The notes below the pieces were generated by a model that made no database searches, had not been told where the DNA came from, and saw only the letters and a program-made list of their open reading frames with translations. Positions 5,134 to 48,586 of a stretch of 64,000 bases of DNA are shown in pieces (position 1 is the stretch's first letter; the number at the start of each line of letters is the position of its first letter). This DNA comes from Sutcliffiella sp. FSL R7-0096 (GTDB taxonomy: Bacteria > Bacillota > Bacilli > Bacillales > Bacillaceae_I): assembly GCF_038595065.1 (NCBI RefSeq), contig NZ_CP152003.1, positions 166,001 through 230,000 on the forward strand, written 5' to 3'. Position numbers and translations under genes: made by a program.

Positions 5134-5298
5134 ATGATTGAATTGGTTTTTAGCGGTAACAAATTTGATCAACAAAGACTAACAAAGTCTGGTGGTCAAA
5201 TCACGATCAAGCAGAATGGCATGCCTGTATTCCAATTTAAAAACAAGGCCCAGTTCACGAAATACGTTCAACTGGGGAAGAAGGGAGCTAGCGCTTAA
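5134..5298 (+). CDS. Small protein upstream of the Rad50-like ATPase (54 aa)
   Basis: A 54-residue frame from ATG 5134 with TTAGGAGGAGATTAG. Its TAA shares a base with the ATG of the ATPase gene (TAATG), so the two are translationally coupled. The protein has a basic, beta-rich pattern (GGQITIKQNGMPVFQFKNKA). No family is recognised. The coupling suggests a partner role or simply dosage control. Confidence 0.7.
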   Translation: MIELVFSGNKFDQQRLTKSGGQITIKQNGMPVFQFKNKAQFTKYVQLGKKGASA

Positions 5299-7274
5299 TG
5301 AAAAACATTACGCTTCATCGGTTAGAGCTAAGGAATTTCAAAGGTGTGAAATCATTCGCCCTTGAGGTGCACGGTGAAAATGTAAAAGTTTACGGTGACA
5401 ATGCTACTGGAAAGACGACTCTGTTCGATGCCTTTGTGTGGTTACTCTTTGATAAGGATAGCCAGAACAAAGAAAAATTTTCTATCAAGACATTGAATAA
5501 AGGGAAAGAATTACACGGGTTAGAGCATGAAGTAGAGGCGACATTTACAATAGGCGATCAAAAGGTTACTCTCCGAAAAGTCTTTTCAGAGAAATGGACC
5601 AAAAAGCGAGGCAGTGCAGAGAAAAAATTCTCCGGCCACACCACTGATTATTACGTAGATGATGTGCCATCAAAAAAGAAGGATTTTACGGATCAAGTAG
5701 AGTCCATAGTTGACGAGAAAATTTTCAAATTGCTAACTAGTCCATCCTATTTCAATGACCAACTTCATTGGAAGGATCGCCGTAACATCCTGCTAGAAGT
5801 TTGCGGTGATGTAACGGAGGAAGACGTCATTGCATCTAACAAAGAACTGGCACAACTTCCGGCAATCCTAAAAGGCCGCACTATTGAAAAACATCGCGCA
5901 GCAATTCTTGGTCGCAGGACTGAGATCAATAAAGAGTTGGACAAAATTCCAGTGCGAATTGATGAGATAGAACATAACCTACCTTCGGTTGAAGGACTAG
6001 AAAAGATAGTTTTAGAGGGCCAAGTTGAATCAATCACCTCGCAAATTGATGAAAAACAGGACATCATCAGCAACATTCGGAACGGAAATGCGATTTCCTC
6101 GAAACAGAGAGAAATACAAGAAATCGAGTTGGAACTCCTAAAGATAAGACAACAGCATGAAGCTGGCAGCAAGGATGATTTCTACAAGCTAAAAGCGCAA
6201 ATTCAAGAGGAAAAGTCAGCTATTTCTCTGCTGGAGTCCAAACAATCTAATCTAAGACAAAAGAAAAAATTCAATGATGACAGTATTGCTTCCACGGAAA
6301 AGAAATTGCAACAACTAAGGAAAGAATGGATGGAATTAGACGTTAAAGAATTTGTCCATAACGATGAGTGCGAATGCCCAACATGTGGTCAGGATCTTCC
6401 AGAAGAACAAGTTTCAGCCACAAGGGAAAAAGCGTTAGCACAATTTAATCTTCAAAAAAGTAAACAACTTGAAGAGGTTGATACCTCTGGCAAACGCATA
6501 AAAGCCCAGAAGGAATCTTTGTTATCCGAGAATGAGCAACTAACCAAAGAATACGAGAGTATTAGTTCCCTCATTTCGGAAAAAGAGGAAAATCTCCTTC
6601 AAATGAACGAACAACTTAAATTACTAGAAGGTTCTGTTGTGGACATCATGGACAACCAGTCCTATGCGACAAAATTAAAGGAAAAATTAGACCGTACAAG
6701 CGAATTAGACAGGATTCGACTAGATGCTCAAACTTCTATCAGAGAAGTAGAGAAAGAAGTTCAGAGTCTGAAAGAACAAAGACTTTCCATTCAAAGTGAT
6801 CTAGCAAAGTTTGTATCGGTGGATCAGGCGAAAAAGCGGATAGATGAACTAATGGAACAAGAACGATTGTTAGCAACTGAGTTTGAAAAATTAGAACAAG
6901 AGCTTTATCTAACGGAAGAGTTCACTCGTTCCAAAGTCAATCTACTGGAGGAAAAGATAAACTCTAAGTTCAAATATGCGCGATTTAACTTGTTCAAAAC
7001 GAACATCAACGGCGGTTTAGAAGATATATGTGATACAACTTACGAAGGCGTCCCATACTCAAGCGGATTGAACAATGCTGCAAGAATAAACGTTGGCTTA
7101 GATATCATCAACACTCTATCTGAGCATTACGGTGTATCTGCACCAATATTTGTAGATAACAGCGAAGCGGTGACGCGGTTAATCGATGTAGGTTCCCAAG
7201 TTATTCAGCTGGTGGTGTCAGAGCAAGATAAGGTGCTTCGAGTAGAGTATCCAGAGCATCGGGAGGCTATCTAA
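5298..7274 (+). CDS. Rad50/SbcC-like SMC ATPase with zinc hook
   Basis: A 658-residue SMC-type ATPase. Walker A (GDNATGKTT) is at about residues 33-41. A long coiled coil (about 210-560) is interrupted by a zinc-hook CPTC motif at about 359-362. The C-terminal ATPase lobe has APIFVDNSEAV as Walker B near 618, with Asn where the catalytic Glu normally stands. It is shorter than SbcC (over 1000 residues), as in phage homologues. There is no SbcD/Mre11 partner. RecT and an MBL-fold protein follow in the same operon, pointing to end processing and recombination of phage DNA. Confidence 0.88.
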   Translation: MKNITLHRLELRNFKGVKSFALEVHGENVKVYGDNATGKTTLFDAFVWLLFDKDSQNKEKFSIKTLNKGKELHGLEHEVEATFTIGDQKVTLRKVFSEKWTKKRGSAEKKFSGHTTDYYVDDVPSKKKDFTDQVESIVDEKIFKLLTSPSYFNDQLHWKDRRNILLEVCGDVTEEDVIASNKELAQLPAILKGRTIEKHRAAILGRRTEINKELDKIPVRIDEIEHNLPSVEGLEKIVLEGQVESITSQIDEKQDIISNIRNGNAISSKQREIQEIELELLKIRQQHEAGSKDDFYKLKAQIQEEKSAISLLESKQSNLRQKKKFNDDSIASTEKKLQQLRKEWMELDVKEFVHNDECECPTCGQDLPEEQVSATREKALAQFNLQKSKQLEEVDTSGKRIKAQKESLLSENEQLTKEYESISSLISEKEENLLQMNEQLKLLEGSVVDIMDNQSYATKLKEKLDRTSELDRIRLDAQTSIREVEKEVQSLKEQRLSIQSDLAKFVSVDQAKKRIDELMEQERLLATEFEKLEQELYLTEEFTRSKVNLLEEKINSKFKYARFNLFKTNINGGLEDICDTTYEGVPYSSGLNNAARINVGLDIINTLSEHYGVSAPIFVDNSEAVTRLIDVGSQVIQLVVSEQDKVLRVEYPEHREAI

Positions 7275-41057: not shown

Positions 41058-42134
41058 ATGCTGTACAAATTTGAAACACTACCTCAATTGGTTGACCTTC
41101 GTAATTCTTTACCCAGTAAGGGAAACTTATCGAAAAGAAGAACATCGTTAAAGGACTTAGTCCGAGTCTGGCACCATAGCTTAACACGTAAACATCTTTC
41201 TGGATCCACTGCATTAGGATTTGCCAATTATCATGTAAACACGCTGGGTTGGGAACGAATTGGATACACTTTTGTTATTGAACCACAAAATATCATAGAT
41301 ACTCCAAACGGAAAGCGTGCTCGCATAGTATATGCAAACAATGTGTTGGACAGATCTTACCACGTTGGTGATAGCAACGACTTTTCCTTAGGTAGTTGTG
41401 TGGCTGGTGACTACCGCTATGACGAGTTAGACGATGCAACGATAGCTAGTATGGTTGACCTACACCTTGCATTAAAAGCTGATAAGATTGGTAAAGAGGA
41501 CAAATCTCATCACGAAATGACAGGGTATGCGTGGAAACAATGTGCAGTCTTTAATTATGCTGTAGCATTAAACTTTAAGCCGAACAAACCAGTCGATAAG
41601 ACTTTACCAGATGTTTATACGGTCCAACAAGGTGACACTTTATGGGGATTAGCGAAAAACGATAGTCGTTTTACTGTGGAAGATTTGATGCTTTGGAATA
41701 ACATTAAGGATCCCTCCAAACTAAAAGTCGGTCAAAAATTGCTATTTAAGCAACCTGAAGTGAAGAATAAACCAGTTACACCACCTACTTCTCAACAGAA
41801 AGCACCAACGAGTGTCGTAGATTATCTTAATAGTATTGGTGTTGATTCATCCTTTGCCAACCGTACAAACCTCGCTAGGCAACATGGCATCAACAACTAT
41901 ACTGGTACTGCTGCACAAAACTTGCAATTGTTGGACAAGTTACGAAACCAACCTAGCAAACCAGCTGCACCTAAGGGCGATCAAAAGACCAATAGTATTG
42001 TTGATTACTTGAATTCCATAAAACAAGATTCATCTTTCGCTAATCGTGAAAAGTTGGCCAAGCAACATGGGATTAAGAATTACAAAGGGACTGCAGCTCA
42101 GAACACTCAGTTGTTAAATAAGTTACGAAAATGA
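41058..42134 (+). CDS. Endolysin: amidase with LysM and two C-terminal repeats
   Basis: A 358-residue endolysin. The N-terminal part (about 1-175) is an N-acetylmuramoyl-L-alanine amidase of the PGRP/Amidase_2 kind (VWHHSL, RIGYTFVI, later SHHEMTG and CAV). A LysM domain follows (about 193-240, VYTVQQGDTLWGLAKN). Then come two 45-residue repeats (about 256-300 and 313-357, VVDYLNSIGVDSSFANRTNL and IVDYLNSIKQDSSFANREKL), probable wall-binding units. It cuts host peptidoglycan at lysis. Confidence 0.88.
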   Translation: MLYKFETLPQLVDLRNSLPSKGNLSKRRTSLKDLVRVWHHSLTRKHLSGSTALGFANYHVNTLGWERIGYTFVIEPQNIIDTPNGKRARIVYANNVLDRSYHVGDSNDFSLGSCVAGDYRYDELDDATIASMVDLHLALKADKIGKEDKSHHEMTGYAWKQCAVFNYAVALNFKPNKPVDKTLPDVYTVQQGDTLWGLAKNDSRFTVEDLMLWNNIKDPSKLKVGQKLLFKQPEVKNKPVTPPTSQQKAPTSVVDYLNSIGVDSSFANRTNLARQHGINNYTGTAAQNLQLLDKLRNQPSKPAAPKGDQKTNSIVDYLNSIKQDSSFANREKLAKQHGIKNYKGTAAQNTQLLNKLRK

Positions 42135-42216: not shown

Positions 42217-42942
42217 TTGGAACAGTTTATATCGCTTATTGTTTTTTCTCTACCAGGATTACTTGCGTATTTATGGATCCAGATGTTTGGATTGAATCCA
42301 ACCGTTAAACATAATCCCACAGAAATAGTAGGTTTAGCAGCGCTCTTGTGGGCACCTACGACCATTCTATCAGTATTAACTTATAACCTTTTATATTTTA
42401 TCTTTGACAATTTTTTAGGATTTTTAAAGATTGATATCTCAAGTCTAACTTTAAGATATATAATTAATATAAACGATATAAATGAGATGTCCTTAAGTTT
42501 AGTTTTCTTATTATATTACTTAATGTTAAGTGGGCTGTTTAGTTTTATAGTGGCATGGGTATGGGTAACTTATATTTATAAATATATGATGGATTTGGTG
42601 AATTGGGTTAGAGTAAAAAGAAAGATATCCAAACTTTCGCAAGAAACAACAGTTTGGGATAGTTTCTTCTTGAAGTTGGAAGAAAATAAGGAAAGCCCAA
42701 TAGTAATAGAGATGTATAAAATAGATAAACCAGAAGAAAAACAATATGGTTCAATTATAAGAATGTCCCGTCCTTTTGAGACGGAACGCGCTTTGATTTT
42801 ACATGACTCAGAAAATTGGAAACTAGCATATAATCATTTTCAGTATAGTATTAAAAGATCATATGTTGATATTAAATCAGGCATTATTATCAATGAATTA
42901 GATGTTCCTCCACCACAAGTAATCGAATCATTAGATAACTAA
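42217..42942 (+). CDS. DUF6338-type membrane protein, accessory
   Basis: A 241-residue protein. Three membrane segments lie in the first 125 residues (FISLIVFSLPGLLAYLWI, LLWAPTTILSVLTYNLLYFI, YLMLSGLFSFIVAWVWVTYI). A cytoplasmic domain follows, with DSFFLKLEE and, near the end, KSGIIINELDVPPP. This is the plan of DUF6338 proteins, whose function is unknown. It stands after the lysis cassette, where lysogenic conversion genes usually sit. TTG 42217 follows TGAGGTG. Confidence 0.78.
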   Translation: MEQFISLIVFSLPGLLAYLWIQMFGLNPTVKHNPTEIVGLAALLWAPTTILSVLTYNLLYFIFDNFLGFLKIDISSLTLRYIININDINEMSLSLVFLLYYLMLSGLFSFIVAWVWVTYIYKYMMDLVNWVRVKRKISKLSQETTVWDSFFLKLEENKESPIVIEMYKIDKPEEKQYGSIIRMSRPFETERALILHDSENWKLAYNHFQYSIKRSYVDIKSGIIINELDVPPPQVIESLDN

Positions 42943-43091: not shown

Positions 43092-43307
43092 CAAAACTCT
43101 CCTTTCTAAATATCTATGTAAAAACCATACATCGTATATTTCGACATCGGGGAGTGTTTCTCCTTTTATTCAACCCTCTTAAGTTTCATTTCCGTATCTT
43201 ACTCTTGTTTAAAAGTATTTATTCAAATTGCAGAGTAAAAGTAAATAAAGAAGGATTCATATAAAATATGTCGAATATTCATTCTGTTAGGTAATAGGAG
43301 GGATAAG
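43092..43307. other. Divergent intergenic region
   Basis: About 215 AT-rich bases between the 50-aa gene (leftward) and the proteasome-like gene (rightward). Both promoters should lie here; I see no consensus pair with confidence. The 62-codon frame at 43076-43264 has no ribosome site. Confidence 0.4.
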
Positions 43308-44588
43308 ATGACAGCTGAAATCGGAATTCTTAATCGATCCGGAGTCGCTCTTGCAGCTGATAGTGCTGTAACAATTGGAGGGGAAGGTAATCAAAAAGTA
43401 TATAATTCCGCAAATAAATTATTTTCCCTTTCTAAGATACATCCTGTAGGGATTATGATTTACGGCGGAGCGGATTTTATGGGTGTACCATGGGAAACAA
43501 TTATTAAAACATATAGAGGTAAATTGGGAGATGCTAAATTTGATACTTTGCAAGAGTATGCGGACCATTTTATAAAGTTCTTTGTAACGGATAACAGGTT
43601 TTGCAATAATCACACAGAATACGATTTGGTGCATAAAATCTTATATAGTGAACTAATGGACATGCTAAATTATGAGGTTAATCCGAAAATTAATGAATTA
43701 ACAGGAACAGGAGAACCTGTTCATAATTCTGATGTTGAAAAAATATTAACTTCAGTTTTAGAGAATAGAATCAATAAATTAAATTCAAACTCAGAAATAA
43801 TACATAATCCCACTTTTGTAGAGAGTTTTGTTGATAAACATAGAAATACAATATTAGATTTATTAAGAAAAGTTATTAATTTCGAACTACAAACACATGT
43901 CATTGATTCATTTGTGGACTTTTGTACTAAGTTAATCAAATCTGATACTTTTTCTAAAAATCACTCAGGTATAGTGATTTCAGGTTATGGGGAAAATGAA
44001 ATATTTCCTAGTTTATTGGACTATAAAATTGAGGGGATATTTCTGGGGGAACTGAAAGCTAAAGAATCTCAACCAATAAAAATTAATTCATATAGTGATG
44101 AAGTTTACTCTACAGCTGCGATGAGACCATTTGCACAAAAGGAAATGGTGTATTCTTTTATGAATGGCCTAGAGCCCTCCCTCCAGGATAATATTATGCA
44201 AATAATATATAATACGATAGAAGCATATAATCAAATATTAATTAAAGATTTTTCAATAGACAAGAAATTTACTGAAGGAGTTCCGAATGTTATTGTCGAA
44301 AATATACACAGGGAACTCGATAAAATTCAATCTACTTACTATGCGCAACCGATAATGGATATTTTAGAAGTGCTCCCAAAAGAAGAGCTAGCAGCTATGG
44401 CGGAAGCGTTGGTAAATCTTACATCATTTAAAAGAAGAATAAGTATGGAAGCTGATTCTGTAGGTGGTCCTATTGATGTGTGTGTCATTACCAAAGGAGA
44501 TGGCCTAGTTTGGATAAAAAGGAAACATTATTTTGAACCTGAACTTAATTATAATTTCTTCAAAAATTACTTAAAGGGGATAGACTAA
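43308..44588 (+). CDS. Proteasome/HslV-like Ntn hydrolase (accessory)
   Basis: A 426-residue protein whose N-terminus reads like a proteasome beta subunit: Thr2 (N-terminal after Met removal) in MTAEIGILNRSGVALAADS, Asp18 and Lys37 at the positions of the catalytic D17 and K33, and the glycine turn GIMIYGGADF matching HslV. Near the end DSVGGPIDVCVITKG resembles the D-x-x-S-G-G strand of beta subunits. It is far longer than HslV (about 175), with a helical insertion (about 80-390). There is no ATPase partner nearby. Its stop overlaps the next start. It is likely a prophage defence or stress peptidase. Confidence 0.75.
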   Translation: MTAEIGILNRSGVALAADSAVTIGGEGNQKVYNSANKLFSLSKIHPVGIMIYGGADFMGVPWETIIKTYRGKLGDAKFDTLQEYADHFIKFFVTDNRFCNNHTEYDLVHKILYSELMDMLNYEVNPKINELTGTGEPVHNSDVEKILTSVLENRINKLNSNSEIIHNPTFVESFVDKHRNTILDLLRKVINFELQTHVIDSFVDFCTKLIKSDTFSKNHSGIVISGYGENEIFPSLLDYKIEGIFLGELKAKESQPIKINSYSDEVYSTAAMRPFAQKEMVYSFMNGLEPSLQDNIMQIIYNTIEAYNQILIKDFSIDKKFTEGVPNVIVENIHRELDKIQSTYYAQPIMDILEVLPKEELAAMAEALVNLTSFKRRISMEADSVGGPIDVCVITKGDGLVWIKRKHYFEPELNYNFFKNYLKGID

Positions 44589-44758
44589 TGCTAACTCAAT
44601 TTTTTTCAAGTGATAAGTTAGTTAAAGTGGAAAATCAAAGTTATTTTAACATCTCTAGCAAAGAAAAGTTGATTTTTGAATTAAAGAAAAATGAATCTAA
44701 TGTAGTAAAATATGCTACTGAAAATATTGTAAAAAATTTAAATGAATTAAATCGATAG
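44588..44758 (+). CDS. Small protein coupled to the proteasome-like gene (56 aa)
   Basis: A 56-codon frame whose ATG shares a base with the stop of the Ntn-hydrolase gene (TAATG). It is Lys/Asn/Glu-rich, with an aromatic first half (LTQFFSSDKLVKVENQSYFN) and a helical second half (EKLIFELKKNESNVVKYATE). No family is recognised. Coupling and the shared terminator make it a likely partner, inhibitor or substrate of the peptidase. Confidence 0.7.
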   Translation: MLTQFFSSDKLVKVENQSYFNISSKEKLIFELKKNESNVVKYATENIVKNLNELNR

Positions 44759-44765
44759 ACCATCT

Positions 44766-44793
44766 AACCCCTTATAATAAGGGGTTTTTCTAT
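44766..44793 (+). terminator. Rho-independent terminator
   Basis: AACCCCTTA / TAAGGGGTT stem followed by TTTTTC, closing the two-gene unit. Confidence 0.85.
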
Positions 44794-45123: not shown

Positions 45124-45179
45124 AATAGGAACATTCGTTCGTTTGTTAACTTGAATAGGAACATTCGTTCGTTTATAAT
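45124..45179 (+). promoter_or_regulatory. SOS promoter with two tandem LexA/DinR boxes
   Basis: Two copies of a 21-bp repeat (45124-45144 and 45154-45174), 30 bp apart, each contain GAACATTCGTTC, a perfect GAAC-N4-GTTC box. The second box fills the 17-nt spacer between -35 TTGAAT (45151-45156) and -10 TATAAT (45174-45179). The first lies just upstream. Two boxes on one face of the helix suggest tight LexA repression. Confidence 0.88.
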
Positions 45180-46143: not shown

Positions 46144-47442
46144 ATGTTGTTTGAAATCATCACTACAACTGTAGCAGCTGGGCTAGTTGGATTAAGTTAT
46201 TTTAAAAACTCTGAACTTGATGATGGAGAGAAAATCAAGAAAATCGCGGTTAATTGTGGACTTTATGTAAAGGAAGGTGAAGAGATTAAGACAATTCAAT
46301 TATATAGAAAAGAAACTCGAGAGTGGGGAAAGGAGTATGTGTACCGGATCCCTCTAGGTCTTTCGTTTAATGATTTTGAAAAAAGATTAAGCAACCTTAG
46401 AGACGGAATAAACAATAGGAAAGGCATCATTGATTGGAACATAATAAAAAAGATTCAATATAAAAAGGGGTTGATTCATCAGTTAAAGGAAATGATGGGG
46501 AACCGGTATATTTCTGACAAGGATGTAGAGTTGAGCTTTGATGGGATGTTACACATTAAAGTATTAGATCGTCACCTACCATCAAAATATGATTTTGAGG
46601 TAAACGTTCTTTCTAAAGAGGATAATTGGAAAGTCCCTCTAGGGGAATCTAGGTATGGATTTGTAAATCATGATCTGGAAGCTGGGCATATCACTTTGGC
46701 TGGAGCAACCAGGAAAGGAAAGACTGTCTTTCTAAAATTACTTATTACATCACTTATATTAAAACAGCCTGACAAAGTGAAATTAACATTAATTGATCTC
46801 AAAGGAGGATTGGCATTTACCCGATTTAAAAACGCAAAACAAGTAGAAGAGGTGGCTACAAACTTAGATGAATCCCTTCGTGCTTTGATAAGAATCAAAA
46901 AAGAAATGGATAATCAAAAGGAGTGGATGGATCAACATGGATGCGAAGACATTAAAGAAGCTAGGCTTGGCACTCGACATTTCATTGTGGTTGATGAAGC
47001 AGCACAAATCTCGCCGCACATCCTCACAAACAAAGAAGAAAAGGAAAAAGCAAAGAAGTGTGAAGAAGCGCTCTCGGAAATAGCAAGAATTGGTGCTGGA
47101 CTTGGGTACAGACTCATCTATTGTAGTCAATATCCAACTGCAGATGTTATGAACAAACAAATAAAACAAAACTGTGATACTGTCATAACTTTTAAGTTAA
47201 GGGATGCGGTTGCTTCACGAGTGGTTTTAGATGAGAGTGGAGCCGAGAAATTAGAGGTAGCAGGAAGGGCAATATATAAAACACCAGATGGCACCAAAAT
47301 TGTGCATACCCCCTTCATAACAAATGGCCAAATAGAGGCACTTATAGCTCCACATATAGTTAATAAGGTTCAAAAGGAGGAGTTGAGGCTTGAAAAACCA
47401 AAAGAAGTTGGAGGAAATACTTTTAAGTTTGAAGAAATGTGA
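46144..47442 (+). CDS. FtsK/SpoIIIE-domain DNA translocase
   Basis: A 432-residue FtsK-type ATPase with one short N-terminal membrane segment (MLFEIITTTVAAGLVGLSYF), Walker A GATRKGKTV (about 186-194), LIDLKGGLAF, and Walker B FIVVDEAAQIS (about 281-291). There is no gamma DNA-reading domain. It is followed by a replication-relaxation protein and a small membrane protein. This trio is seen at the ends of Bacillus prophages and on conjugative or cryptic elements. The likely role is moving the element DNA or keeping it extrachromosomal; unproven. Confidence 0.87.
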   Translation: MLFEIITTTVAAGLVGLSYFKNSELDDGEKIKKIAVNCGLYVKEGEEIKTIQLYRKETREWGKEYVYRIPLGLSFNDFEKRLSNLRDGINNRKGIIDWNIIKKIQYKKGLIHQLKEMMGNRYISDKDVELSFDGMLHIKVLDRHLPSKYDFEVNVLSKEDNWKVPLGESRYGFVNHDLEAGHITLAGATRKGKTVFLKLLITSLILKQPDKVKLTLIDLKGGLAFTRFKNAKQVEEVATNLDESLRALIRIKKEMDNQKEWMDQHGCEDIKEARLGTRHFIVVDEAAQISPHILTNKEEKEKAKKCEEALSEIARIGAGLGYRLIYCSQYPTADVMNKQIKQNCDTVITFKLRDAVASRVVLDESGAEKLEVAGRAIYKTPDGTKIVHTPFITNGQIEALIAPHIVNKVQKEELRLEKPKEVGGNTFKFEEM

Positions 47443-47959
47443 CTACCTCTCCAGGGAGCAGTTACAACGTATGCATCGATTAGGAAAAGACCGAAATGCG
47501 CAGAGAATACTTAGTAATATGGAAGAGTTTATTTCCTACTTTCACGAAAATAGAAGGAAAATCTACTACTTAAATGCAGCTGGTCGAGAGATGGTGCAAG
47601 CAGTAAAGAAACGAAAGAAAACAGTACAGGTGAATCATTACTTAATGAGAAACGATCTTTATATTCATAAAGGAAGACCGTCTTCATGGAAAAACGAAGT
47701 TAAAATCTCCATTAATAAAGTAGCCTTCATAGCAGATGCCGTCTATATTTCAAACAAAATCCACAAATTTATAGAAATCGATTATAAACAGTCCATGGTT
47801 AAAAATGTGCAGAAAATTAAAAAATACAAAGATTTATCCACAGTTAATCCACACTTTTCACTTATCTGGGTAACAACTACACCTTATCGAAAGAACAGGC
47901 TAGAACAACTTTGTCAGGGCTTGCGAGGTAAAGTCTATCTATGGGAGGATCTAAAATGA
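47390..47959 (+). CDS. Replication-relaxation family protein
   Basis: A 189-residue protein of the Replic_Relax group. The N-terminal winged helix (about 5-70: LEEILLSLKKCDYLSREQLQ, then RILSNMEEFISYF) is followed by a nuclease-like alpha/beta part (about 95-185; EIDYKQ, FSLIWVTTT). TTG 47390 with AAAGGAGGAG overlaps the FtsK gene by 53 nt. The family is linked with plasmid and phage replication control. Confidence 0.83.
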   Translation: MKNQKKLEEILLSLKKCDYLSREQLQRMHRLGKDRNAQRILSNMEEFISYFHENRRKIYYLNAAGREMVQAVKKRKKTVQVNHYLMRNDLYIHKGRPSSWKNEVKISINKVAFIADAVYISNKIHKFIEIDYKQSMVKNVQKIKKYKDLSTVNPHFSLIWVTTTPYRKNRLEQLCQGLRGKVYLWEDLK

Positions 47960-48378
47960 GAACTGAATCCATTTCCTTTGGAGAGTTTATGTCAGGAAGT
48001 TATAAGCAAAAGAAAAAGGTTACTGATTTGAATTGGAAGTATATGAGGAGAGTGGCGACATCTATGGCAATTCCACTGATTGCAACAAAACCAGTGTTCG
48101 CTGATTCGCCAGAAGTCATTTCGGTAGGTGCTACCCAATACTTGGGTGAGAAATCTTTGGAAATCATTGCTCATGCACTAGACCCTCTTGTAGATTTAAT
48201 GGTAGCACTCAGCTTTCCGGTTTGTTCTGTCATCATTGTAGGATCCTGTTTCTTCTTTATGTTAGGTAAAAGCGAGAGGGGATGGACTGGAATACAAAAT
48301 GCAGGGCTCGGGTATGTACTTATTCAGTTAATGCCAATGTTACTGACAGTATTAAAAGAAATTGGTAGTGCTATATAA
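47956..48378 (+). CDS. Small membrane protein of the FtsK trio
   Basis: A 140-residue protein. A charged N-terminus precedes a signal-like segment (MAIPLIATKPVFADS) and two membrane spans (LVALSFPVCSVIIVGSCFFF-like region and YVLIQLMPMLLTVL). ATG 47956 with GGGAGG is chosen. It is overlapped by and probably works with the FtsK-like protein at the membrane. No family name is recognised. Confidence 0.75.
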   Translation: MRTESISFGEFMSGSYKQKKKVTDLNWKYMRRVATSMAIPLIATKPVFADSPEVISVGATQYLGEKSLEIIAHALDPLVDLMVALSFPVCSVIIVGSCFFFMLGKSERGWTGIQNAGLGYVLIQLMPMLLTVLKEIGSAI

Positions 48379-48501
48379 AATTGACCAACTTTTGACCATT
48401 TTTACAATGTTTTTGAATAGAACTACATGTAGAAATTTTTGTTTAAAGAAGAGAAATTGCACAGGAGAGTAAACTCCCGAGAAGTTGTGTATAGGGATGA
48501 T
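48379..48501. other. Prophage right end
   Basis: Non-coding stretch between the last prophage gene and attR. It contains short repeats (TTGACCAACTTTTGACCATTTTT) and an inverted repeat (GGAGAGTAAACTCCC), which may be integrase or excisionase arm sites. Confidence 0.5.
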
Positions 48502-48567
48502 ATGAAAGAGCGTAAAAAATACGGACTTAAGGGCGCTCGTCGTGCACCTCAGTTCTCAAAACGTTAA
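48502..48567 (+). pseudogene. rpsI: rpsI 3' fragment = attR core
   Basis: These 66 bases encode the last 21 residues of ribosomal protein S9 (MKERKKYGLKGARRAPQFSK, then Arg and stop). No S9 sequence precedes it; upstream is prophage DNA. It is therefore the duplicated attachment sequence left by integration into the 3' end of rpsI. The intact rpsI, repaired by the matching phage sequence at attL, should lie left of the window beside the integrase. The fragment is followed by the native rpsI terminator. Confidence 0.88.
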
Positions 48568-48586
48568 TCTTCGGATTCCAATATGG

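Follow-up and report, generated by a model that had tools for sequence, protein, structure and literature searches.

A prophage-borne proteasome-like Ntn hydrolase, probably of the PMI-4 family, and its conserved small partner gene in Sutcliffiella sp. FSL R7-0096

Twenty-two uncharacterised proteasome-like families were described in 2021 by Fuchs, Alva and Lupas (PMC8665760), and one of these is the 'Proteasome homolog with Multiple Insertions 4' (PMI-4), for which HDY66466.1 is a published sequence example. According to the accessible part of that paper, no genomic context suggesting a function was found by its authors for these families. PMI-3 has the same two insertion sites as PMI-4, but it is given without phage members in Table 1 of the same source, and Connectase, a monomeric archaeal proteasome homologue, is described there as a specific protein ligase. 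The DNA studied here is a stretch of 64,000 nt of Sutcliffiella sp. FSL R7-0096 (NZ_CP152003.1, positions 166,001-230,000), referred to below as the window. From its letters alone, the original prediction had proposed a prophage-borne, HslV-like peptidase of 426 aa coupled to a 56-aa protein and closed by a terminator. Both ORFs exist, they overlap as TAATG, and a terminator-like hairpin follows them (Table 1).

Table 1. Features of the gene pair and its surroundings (window coordinates), and of the ubiquitin-like cassettes (coordinates of the loci named)
Feature	Coordinates	Strand	Basis or remark
426-aa proteasome-like Ntn hydrolase, probable PMI-4	43308..44588	+	ATG start; profile, model, conservation
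Shine-Dalgarno-like AGGAGGG of peptidase gene	43296..43302	+	read from sequence
Peptidase active-site codons	Thr2 43311-43313, Asp18 43359-43361, Lys37 43416-43418, Asp390 44475-44477	+	
56-aa micro-partner	44588..44758	+	start overlaps peptidase stop as TAATG; positional conservation
Shine-Dalgarno-like AAAGGGG of micro-partner gene	44573-44579	+	read from sequence
Terminator-like hairpin closing the pair	44766..44786	+	9 pairs
Endolysin gene, upstream of the pair	41058..42134	+	LysM; PHROG 5182; context only
attR	48501..48568	none	exact copy of attL; prophage right end
Ubiquitin-like cassette	L019 6416-8799		
Ubiquitin-like cassette	L022 7944-11751		
Ubiquitin-like cassette	L023 10699-14210		
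Ubiquitin-like cassette	L104 11687-15203		

When the window peptidase was searched alone, nothing significant was obtained in Pfam, NCBIfam, PADLOC or, by sequence, the PDB; it matched PHROG 5990 (E=6e-117), a family of unknown function. When a 45-row profile was compared with the PDB, the archaeal (Thermoplasma) proteasome beta subunit was matched (E=4.1e-5), with its Thr1 aligned onto Thr2 and its GGxIDVAVI strand onto residues 384-402; this match consists of two stretches, each weak taken singly. Hits to the Pfam Proteasome family at E up to 0.1 were given by 9 of the 45 members, the lowest E being 0.002; none was obtained for the window protein itself. A structure model from 9 rows was poor (pLDDT 61.3), and the model from 45 rows was used instead (mean pLDDT 89.9, pTM 0.86). 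As shown by Foldseek against the PDB, all ten matches at E<=0.001 were 20S proteasome subunits (best E=1.4e-4, probability 1.00), with TM-scores by target of 0.50-0.57 and rmsd of 12-18 A, the high rmsd being due to the helical inserts. Among the best 50 PDB fold matches, Anbu was found at rank 31 and HslV was absent; in a viral structure library, the best match (E=1.3e-4) was to a phage protein that bears the name proteasome beta. The predicted Ntn fold was thus recovered by the profile, the model and the fold matches to 20S beta subunits. The label HslV-like was too specific, since no HslV appeared among those 50 fold matches and PMI-4 fits better, and membership of HslV was rejected on the basis of length, inserts and the lack of a Pfam proteasome match for the window protein.

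Within the model, helices 62-73 and 81-94 are present, and a short link joins the strands at 30-32 and 38-40. Long helices are found at about 101-211 (before a strand at 220) and at 290-379 (before a strand at 389), in agreement with the large helical insertion that had been predicted; in our reading of the model, the first would lie after H1/H2 and the second in the H3/H4 region. The GIMIYGGADF strand to which the original prediction pointed is also present, modelled as E47-53.

Conservation was counted in 56 full-length relatives less than 90% identical to one another. Residue 2 was Thr in 54 of these and Ser in the other two, and Asp18 and Lys37 were present in all 56, so that the claimed Thr2, Asp18 and Lys37 are both in place and conserved. 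Asp390 was likewise invariant, as were Ser19, Gly226, Gly228, Val385, Gly387, Trp402, Lys406, Phe409 and Asn414. The oxyanion part of the GIMIYGGADF claim fared less well than the strand: Gly53, which is the counterpart of oxyanion Gly47 by our own alignment, was Gly in only 31 of the 56 and Asn in 15. The oxyanion hole relies on a backbone NH, so that a residue other than Gly at position 53 is unusual but compatible with activity. Taken together, the proteasome fold and active site are regarded as virtually certain; the identity as a proteasome-type Ntn hydrolase is strong, and its function is what we infer below. In the E. coli locus L097 (4786-6189), the annotated peptidase start is probably too early, being placed some 33 codons ahead of the conserved Met-Thr start.

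To score the small gene, 81 full-length reads were reduced to 64 distinct proteins (window included), 60 of which were scorable. Four loci ending less than 200 nt from the stop with no scorable ORF (L017, L026, L040, L066) were set aside, broken or partial ones (L005, L011, L012, L024, L082-L085, L087, L092-L095) were excluded; L010 and L090 duplicate the window locus. After 58 of the 60 relatives there is an ORF of 35-80 codons whose start lies between -32 and +25 nt relative to the peptidase stop, as compared with 221 of 755 control ORFs (at least 150 aa, from the same loci, spurious frames included); with the TAATG overlap, this is the arrangement looked for in toxin-antitoxin systems, namely two coupled genes kept together. 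When an ATG and a Shine-Dalgarno-like tetramer were required and ORFs of at least 250 aa served as controls, the counts were 51 of 60 and 27 of 341, respectively. The significance given by the Fisher test is inflated by the relatedness of the loci. Both misses of the first test have a small ORF nearby: a 65-aa ORF begins inside the extended peptidase C-terminus in L019, and in L038 a 360-aa ORF is met first, its end being overlapped by one of 63 aa. The small ORFs chosen in 59 loci had median values of 58 aa for length and 5 nt for the gap, and were preceded by a Shine-Dalgarno-like match of at least 4 bases in 52 loci. Summed over related pairs (>50% amino-acid identity, some rows used in two pairs), the differences at codon positions 1, 2 and 3 were 149, 107 and 256, and this third-position excess indicates that the small gene codes for a protein under selection. 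The predicted conservation of the small gene with the peptidase was therefore confirmed, and a conserved two-gene unit is very probable. Neither a non-Ntn fold, nor the loss of Thr2, Asp or Lys, nor an unconserved small frame, which the original prediction had named as refuting results, was found.

The micro-partner of the window was 60% identical to that of Cytobacillus. No sequence family uniting distant partners emerged (36 cross-cluster matches versus 22-33 in eight shuffles), and no common motif was found across the small partners. When the partners were compared with shuffles for an amphipathic helix, 13 of 53 had p<0.05, modestly more than expected, and the median p was 0.24. The small ORF is unannotated in the records of both E. 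coli loci fetched. At 13 of 53 loci a terminator-like hairpin was found 3' of the small ORF, compared with 7 of 1060 random windows, which indicates that the pair is a closed unit at part of the loci. Among the broken peptidase copies examined, a small ORF follows in 8 of 9. A toxin-antitoxin logic drawn from this pattern was set aside, since the peptidase gene is the larger target and this could explain why it is the one found broken beside an intact partner.

The prophage harbouring the pair is real. It is bounded by a 68-bp exact repeat, of which attL lies in the host contig (G000:C1:163345), with a tyrosine integrase gene adjoining it just inside the element; the repeat is at the 3' end of a gene that, by eye, we take to be that of ribosomal protein S9. 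Holin- and endolysin-type genes lie upstream of the pair. The predicted position after the lysis genes and before attR stood for the endolysin; as for attR, the pair does precede it, but at a distance of 3.7 kb with other genes between. The ORFs neighbouring the pair in the Pfam scan were the endolysin and a 241-aa protein and, on the other side, a YolD gene. The 241-aa ORF (42217-42942), located between the endolysin and the pair, has only a weak DUF6338 match (E 0.013) and is possibly a second cargo gene. Two exact 21-nt repeats, each with GAACATTCGTTC, a sequence resembling the Bacillus LexA/SOS box, are found at 45124-45174 upstream of a 43-aa ORF and the YolD-like gene. FtsK/SpoIIIE-like, replication-relaxation-family and membrane-type genes occupy 46144-48378, between the pair and attR; such genes are not usual at a phage genome end and recall a plasmid or conjugative element instead.

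As predicted, a Pfam scan covering 20 of the window ORFs, out of 104 listed ORFs of at least 90 aa, revealed no ATPase of the ClpY, Mpa or Arc type. Other ATPases are present in the window, namely an FtsK-type (46144-47442) and an SMC-like protein (5298-7274), and the host genome carries a single ordinary gene of Pfam's proteasome family (C1:2118609-2119133). In the same genome (G000:C1), two tyrosine-recombinase frames (402 and 661 aa) are paired at six places, for example at 2553928 and 3058732, with identical scores, and behave as a multi-copy transposon would. A promoter scan of the pair region gave 5 promoter-like sites versus a shuffle mean of 10.0, with none directly upstream of the pair, and no promoter is claimed.

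One search for relatives gave five loci, in Cytobacillus (70% identity), Bacillus, Euryarchaeota, Prevotellaceae and Dehalococcoidia MAGs. Relatives were also counted in 13 of 50,697 phage records (Streptococcus satellites and phages, Providencia, Porphyromonas, Stenotrophomonas), in 10 of 72,556 plasmid records and on 63 IMG/VR contigs. Among the genomes of the relatives set, 2 of 61 matched, one being the genome studied here and the other holding two fragments; in the phylum set there were 5 of 398, own genome and fragments counted, with an uninterrupted full-length gene in the own genome and one other only. The E. coli count, 22 of 5426 genomes, was made by DNA similarity and is a lower bound. 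The presence of the peptidase is sporadic and on mobile elements: prophages, Streptococcus satellites and plasmids.

The E. coli matches are of two kinds, 9 being near-identical to L096 and 13 of the L097 type. In L096 the peptidase gene lies between the antiterminator Q and DNA methyltransferase genes and runs counter to its neighbours. All 13 L097-type copies have the DNA of a CI-like HTH gene some 1.3 kb upstream of the part that matched (12 of them cover 80% or more of the flank query), and such a gene directly precedes the peptidase in the one L097-type locus fetched. The rexAB genes of lambda sit after cI, a comparable kind of place. An HTH gene also precedes the peptidase in L038, HigA-like HTH genes do so in the Streptococcus satellites, and repressors rank among the most frequent families matched by neighbours. 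These neighbours would suit a regulator of lysogeny or induction, in which the protease processes the repressor or antirepressor of the element, or a host regulator, and the micro-protein is a signal or inhibitor; ImmA-type proteases, which act with ImmR-type repressors, offer an analogy. We place this reading second and consider it unlikely: in the window and in Stenotrophomonas phage BUCT708 the peptidase is near lysis genes and far from the repressor, and it also occurs on plasmids and beside differing regulators.

In BUCT708, which carries integrase and Cro/CI-type genes, the peptidase gene stands in inverted orientation, flanked by tail-region and holin genes. A RloB-domain gene and an ATP-binding-protein gene, inverted in the early region of the same phage (L103, 39549-41200), look like another defence-type cargo. 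In the satellites, the peptidase follows a Gp49/HigB-like and HTH/HigA-like gene pair. When the slot after this pair was compared in nine records (those with at least 80% of the gene-pair query), the peptidase was found in seven, three of them closely alike, another gene in Javan342 and a short ORF only in Javan99; the peptidase pair thus comes and goes at one satellite slot.

The neighbours were scanned as a batch of 125 proteins, hand-picked (mostly longer ones) from 194 predicted at 56 loci. Within the top 25 of 90 families matched, the commonest were lysis (endolysin, holin) and repressor families, and a few neighbours matched PADLOC models: RmrA (up to 4), HTH_VI (4) and capH (4), with single matches to a methyltransferase, RmrT, mad3 and PDC-S35. 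These PADLOC matches were counted without a control set and are compatible with enrichment near defence genes as well as with its absence. The frequent endolysin and holin neighbours are also what a phage lytic-cycle protein, acting in host takeover, virion maturation or lysis timing, would show. Such a role is highly improbable, as the gene is rare and sporadic even within related hosts, occurs in satellites and on plasmids, and in some prophages runs against the direction of the late genes.

The gene pair behaves like cargo, being inverted in BUCT708, on the opposite strand in an E. coli prophage and variable at the satellite slot. Because prophage and satellite defence or conflict genes behave in this manner, a mobile-element cargo module for immunity or conflict is placed first, and defence or conflict between elements is our leading, though tentative, reading of its main role. 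The defence or abortive-infection role of the original prediction would agree with this distribution. Counted against defence is that many relatives lie by lysis or repressor genes, as a lysis or lysogeny role also predicts; counted against the favoured reading as a whole are the absence of a family uniting the partners, the oxyanion Gly in only 31 of 56, the weak profile stretches and the high rmsd. Neither gene matched a described defence-system model in PADLOC-DB 2.0.0 at E up to 10, and a known defence system was rejected on this basis. No report of the pair as a defence system was found in the open-access literature, most subscription papers lying outside that search, and a word search of the accessible text of PMC9122126 and PMC9519451 found no mention of proteasome, Ntn or HslV.

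For the favoured immunity role, the following mechanism may be proposed. Met1 would be removed by methionine aminopeptidase, exposing Thr as the nucleophile with no propeptide, as the Met-Thr start suggests. The two big helical inserts probably block or alter ring assembly and probably offer a binding surface for the coupled partner of 34-74 aa, which would be an obligate regulator, either an inhibitor/antitoxin or an adaptor; that it regulates the peptidase directly is rather likely. An infection cue may then change the partner-peptidase complex so that a restricted group of proteins, of host or phage, is cleaved, and the most likely role would be an immunity or abortive-infection module by which a lysogen, or a cell with the satellite, is shielded from rival phages. 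If a role in phage conflict is true, prophage and satellite immunity would gain a new kind of effector, a proteasome-type protease. The 1:1 gene pairing and the inserts would also suit a dedicated processing or ligating enzyme with a private substrate, either the micro-protein itself or some protein that it tags, for which the monomeric ligase Connectase (PMC8665760) is a precedent. We judge this quite improbable: the small partners have no common motif, and the model has no Connectase S3/S4 insertion and does have the H1/H2 that Connectase lacks.

Nine of the ten matching plasmid records were viewed, one of them unannotated, and 4 of the 8 annotated loci, on rhizobial plasmids (L019 from Mesorhizobium; L022, L023 and L104 from Rhizobium), have a multiubiquitin protein, the E1-like adenylyltransferase ThiF and DUF6527 near the peptidase. 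About 1.2-1.5 kb separate this cassette, which has a ClpP gene in three of the four, from the peptidase gene, and the L104 peptidase match is in two pieces. The cassette has two arrangements, which go with different peptidase branches (L019 versus L022/L023) in a part of the tree with weak support around L019. Relatives of the cassette ThiF were found in 170 of 72,556 plasmid records, and 'DUF6527' occurred in no paper by a word search of the open-access literature. That PMI-4 and its micro-partner form an unrecognised immunity class with a threonine protease, wired to the ubiquitin-like cassette in rhizobial plasmids, is quite improbable as a whole; if true, the link would be a bacterial counterpart, in defence, of ubiquitin-proteasome coupling.

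Compared with known systems, the window peptidase shares with HslV (ClpQ) the superfamily, the N-terminal Thr nucleophile and the Asp17/Lys33 counterparts. The HslV subunit is compact, without long insertions, and has the HslU (ClpY) ATPase beside it, whereas the window peptidase has 426 aa with two helical inserts and no HslU among its adjoining ORFs. Like PPH and AAH, it is a proteasome-like protein spread by phages; unlike it, these belong to the compact, insertion-free group I, PPH having about 140 residues, as described in the accessible part of PMC8665760. Connectase is, in the same source, likewise a single-chain proteasome-like protein with helical insertions, and shows that the proteasome fold can work outside rings, but its insertion is a two-helix one at S3/S4; after the window peptidase there is also a coupled micro-gene. 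With the variable immunity cargo of prophages and satellites (PMC9122126, as far as accessible), the pair shares the form of variable small gene units. The insert combination and the occurrence in phages indicate that PMI-4 is the best fit by description: the PMI-4 core Thr/Ser1-Asp17-Lys33 is matched by 56 of 56 relatives, the long insertions after H1/H2 and between H3/H4 are matched at both sites in the model, and the range over many bacterial phyla, Euryarchaeota and phages given in PMC8665760 is also broad here. The large protein alone is thus probably a further member of a family described in 2021 as uncharacterised. Neither the micro-partner nor the cargo habit is part of the PMI-4 description in the accessible text of that paper, relative to which the conserved micro-partner, the exchange at the satellite slot and the rhizobial ubiquitin-like neighbourhood seem to be new; no later report of them came up in the open-access literature. 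The fixed micro-partner and the mobile-cargo habit give a functional hint for this apparent PMI-4 branch and make it directly testable.
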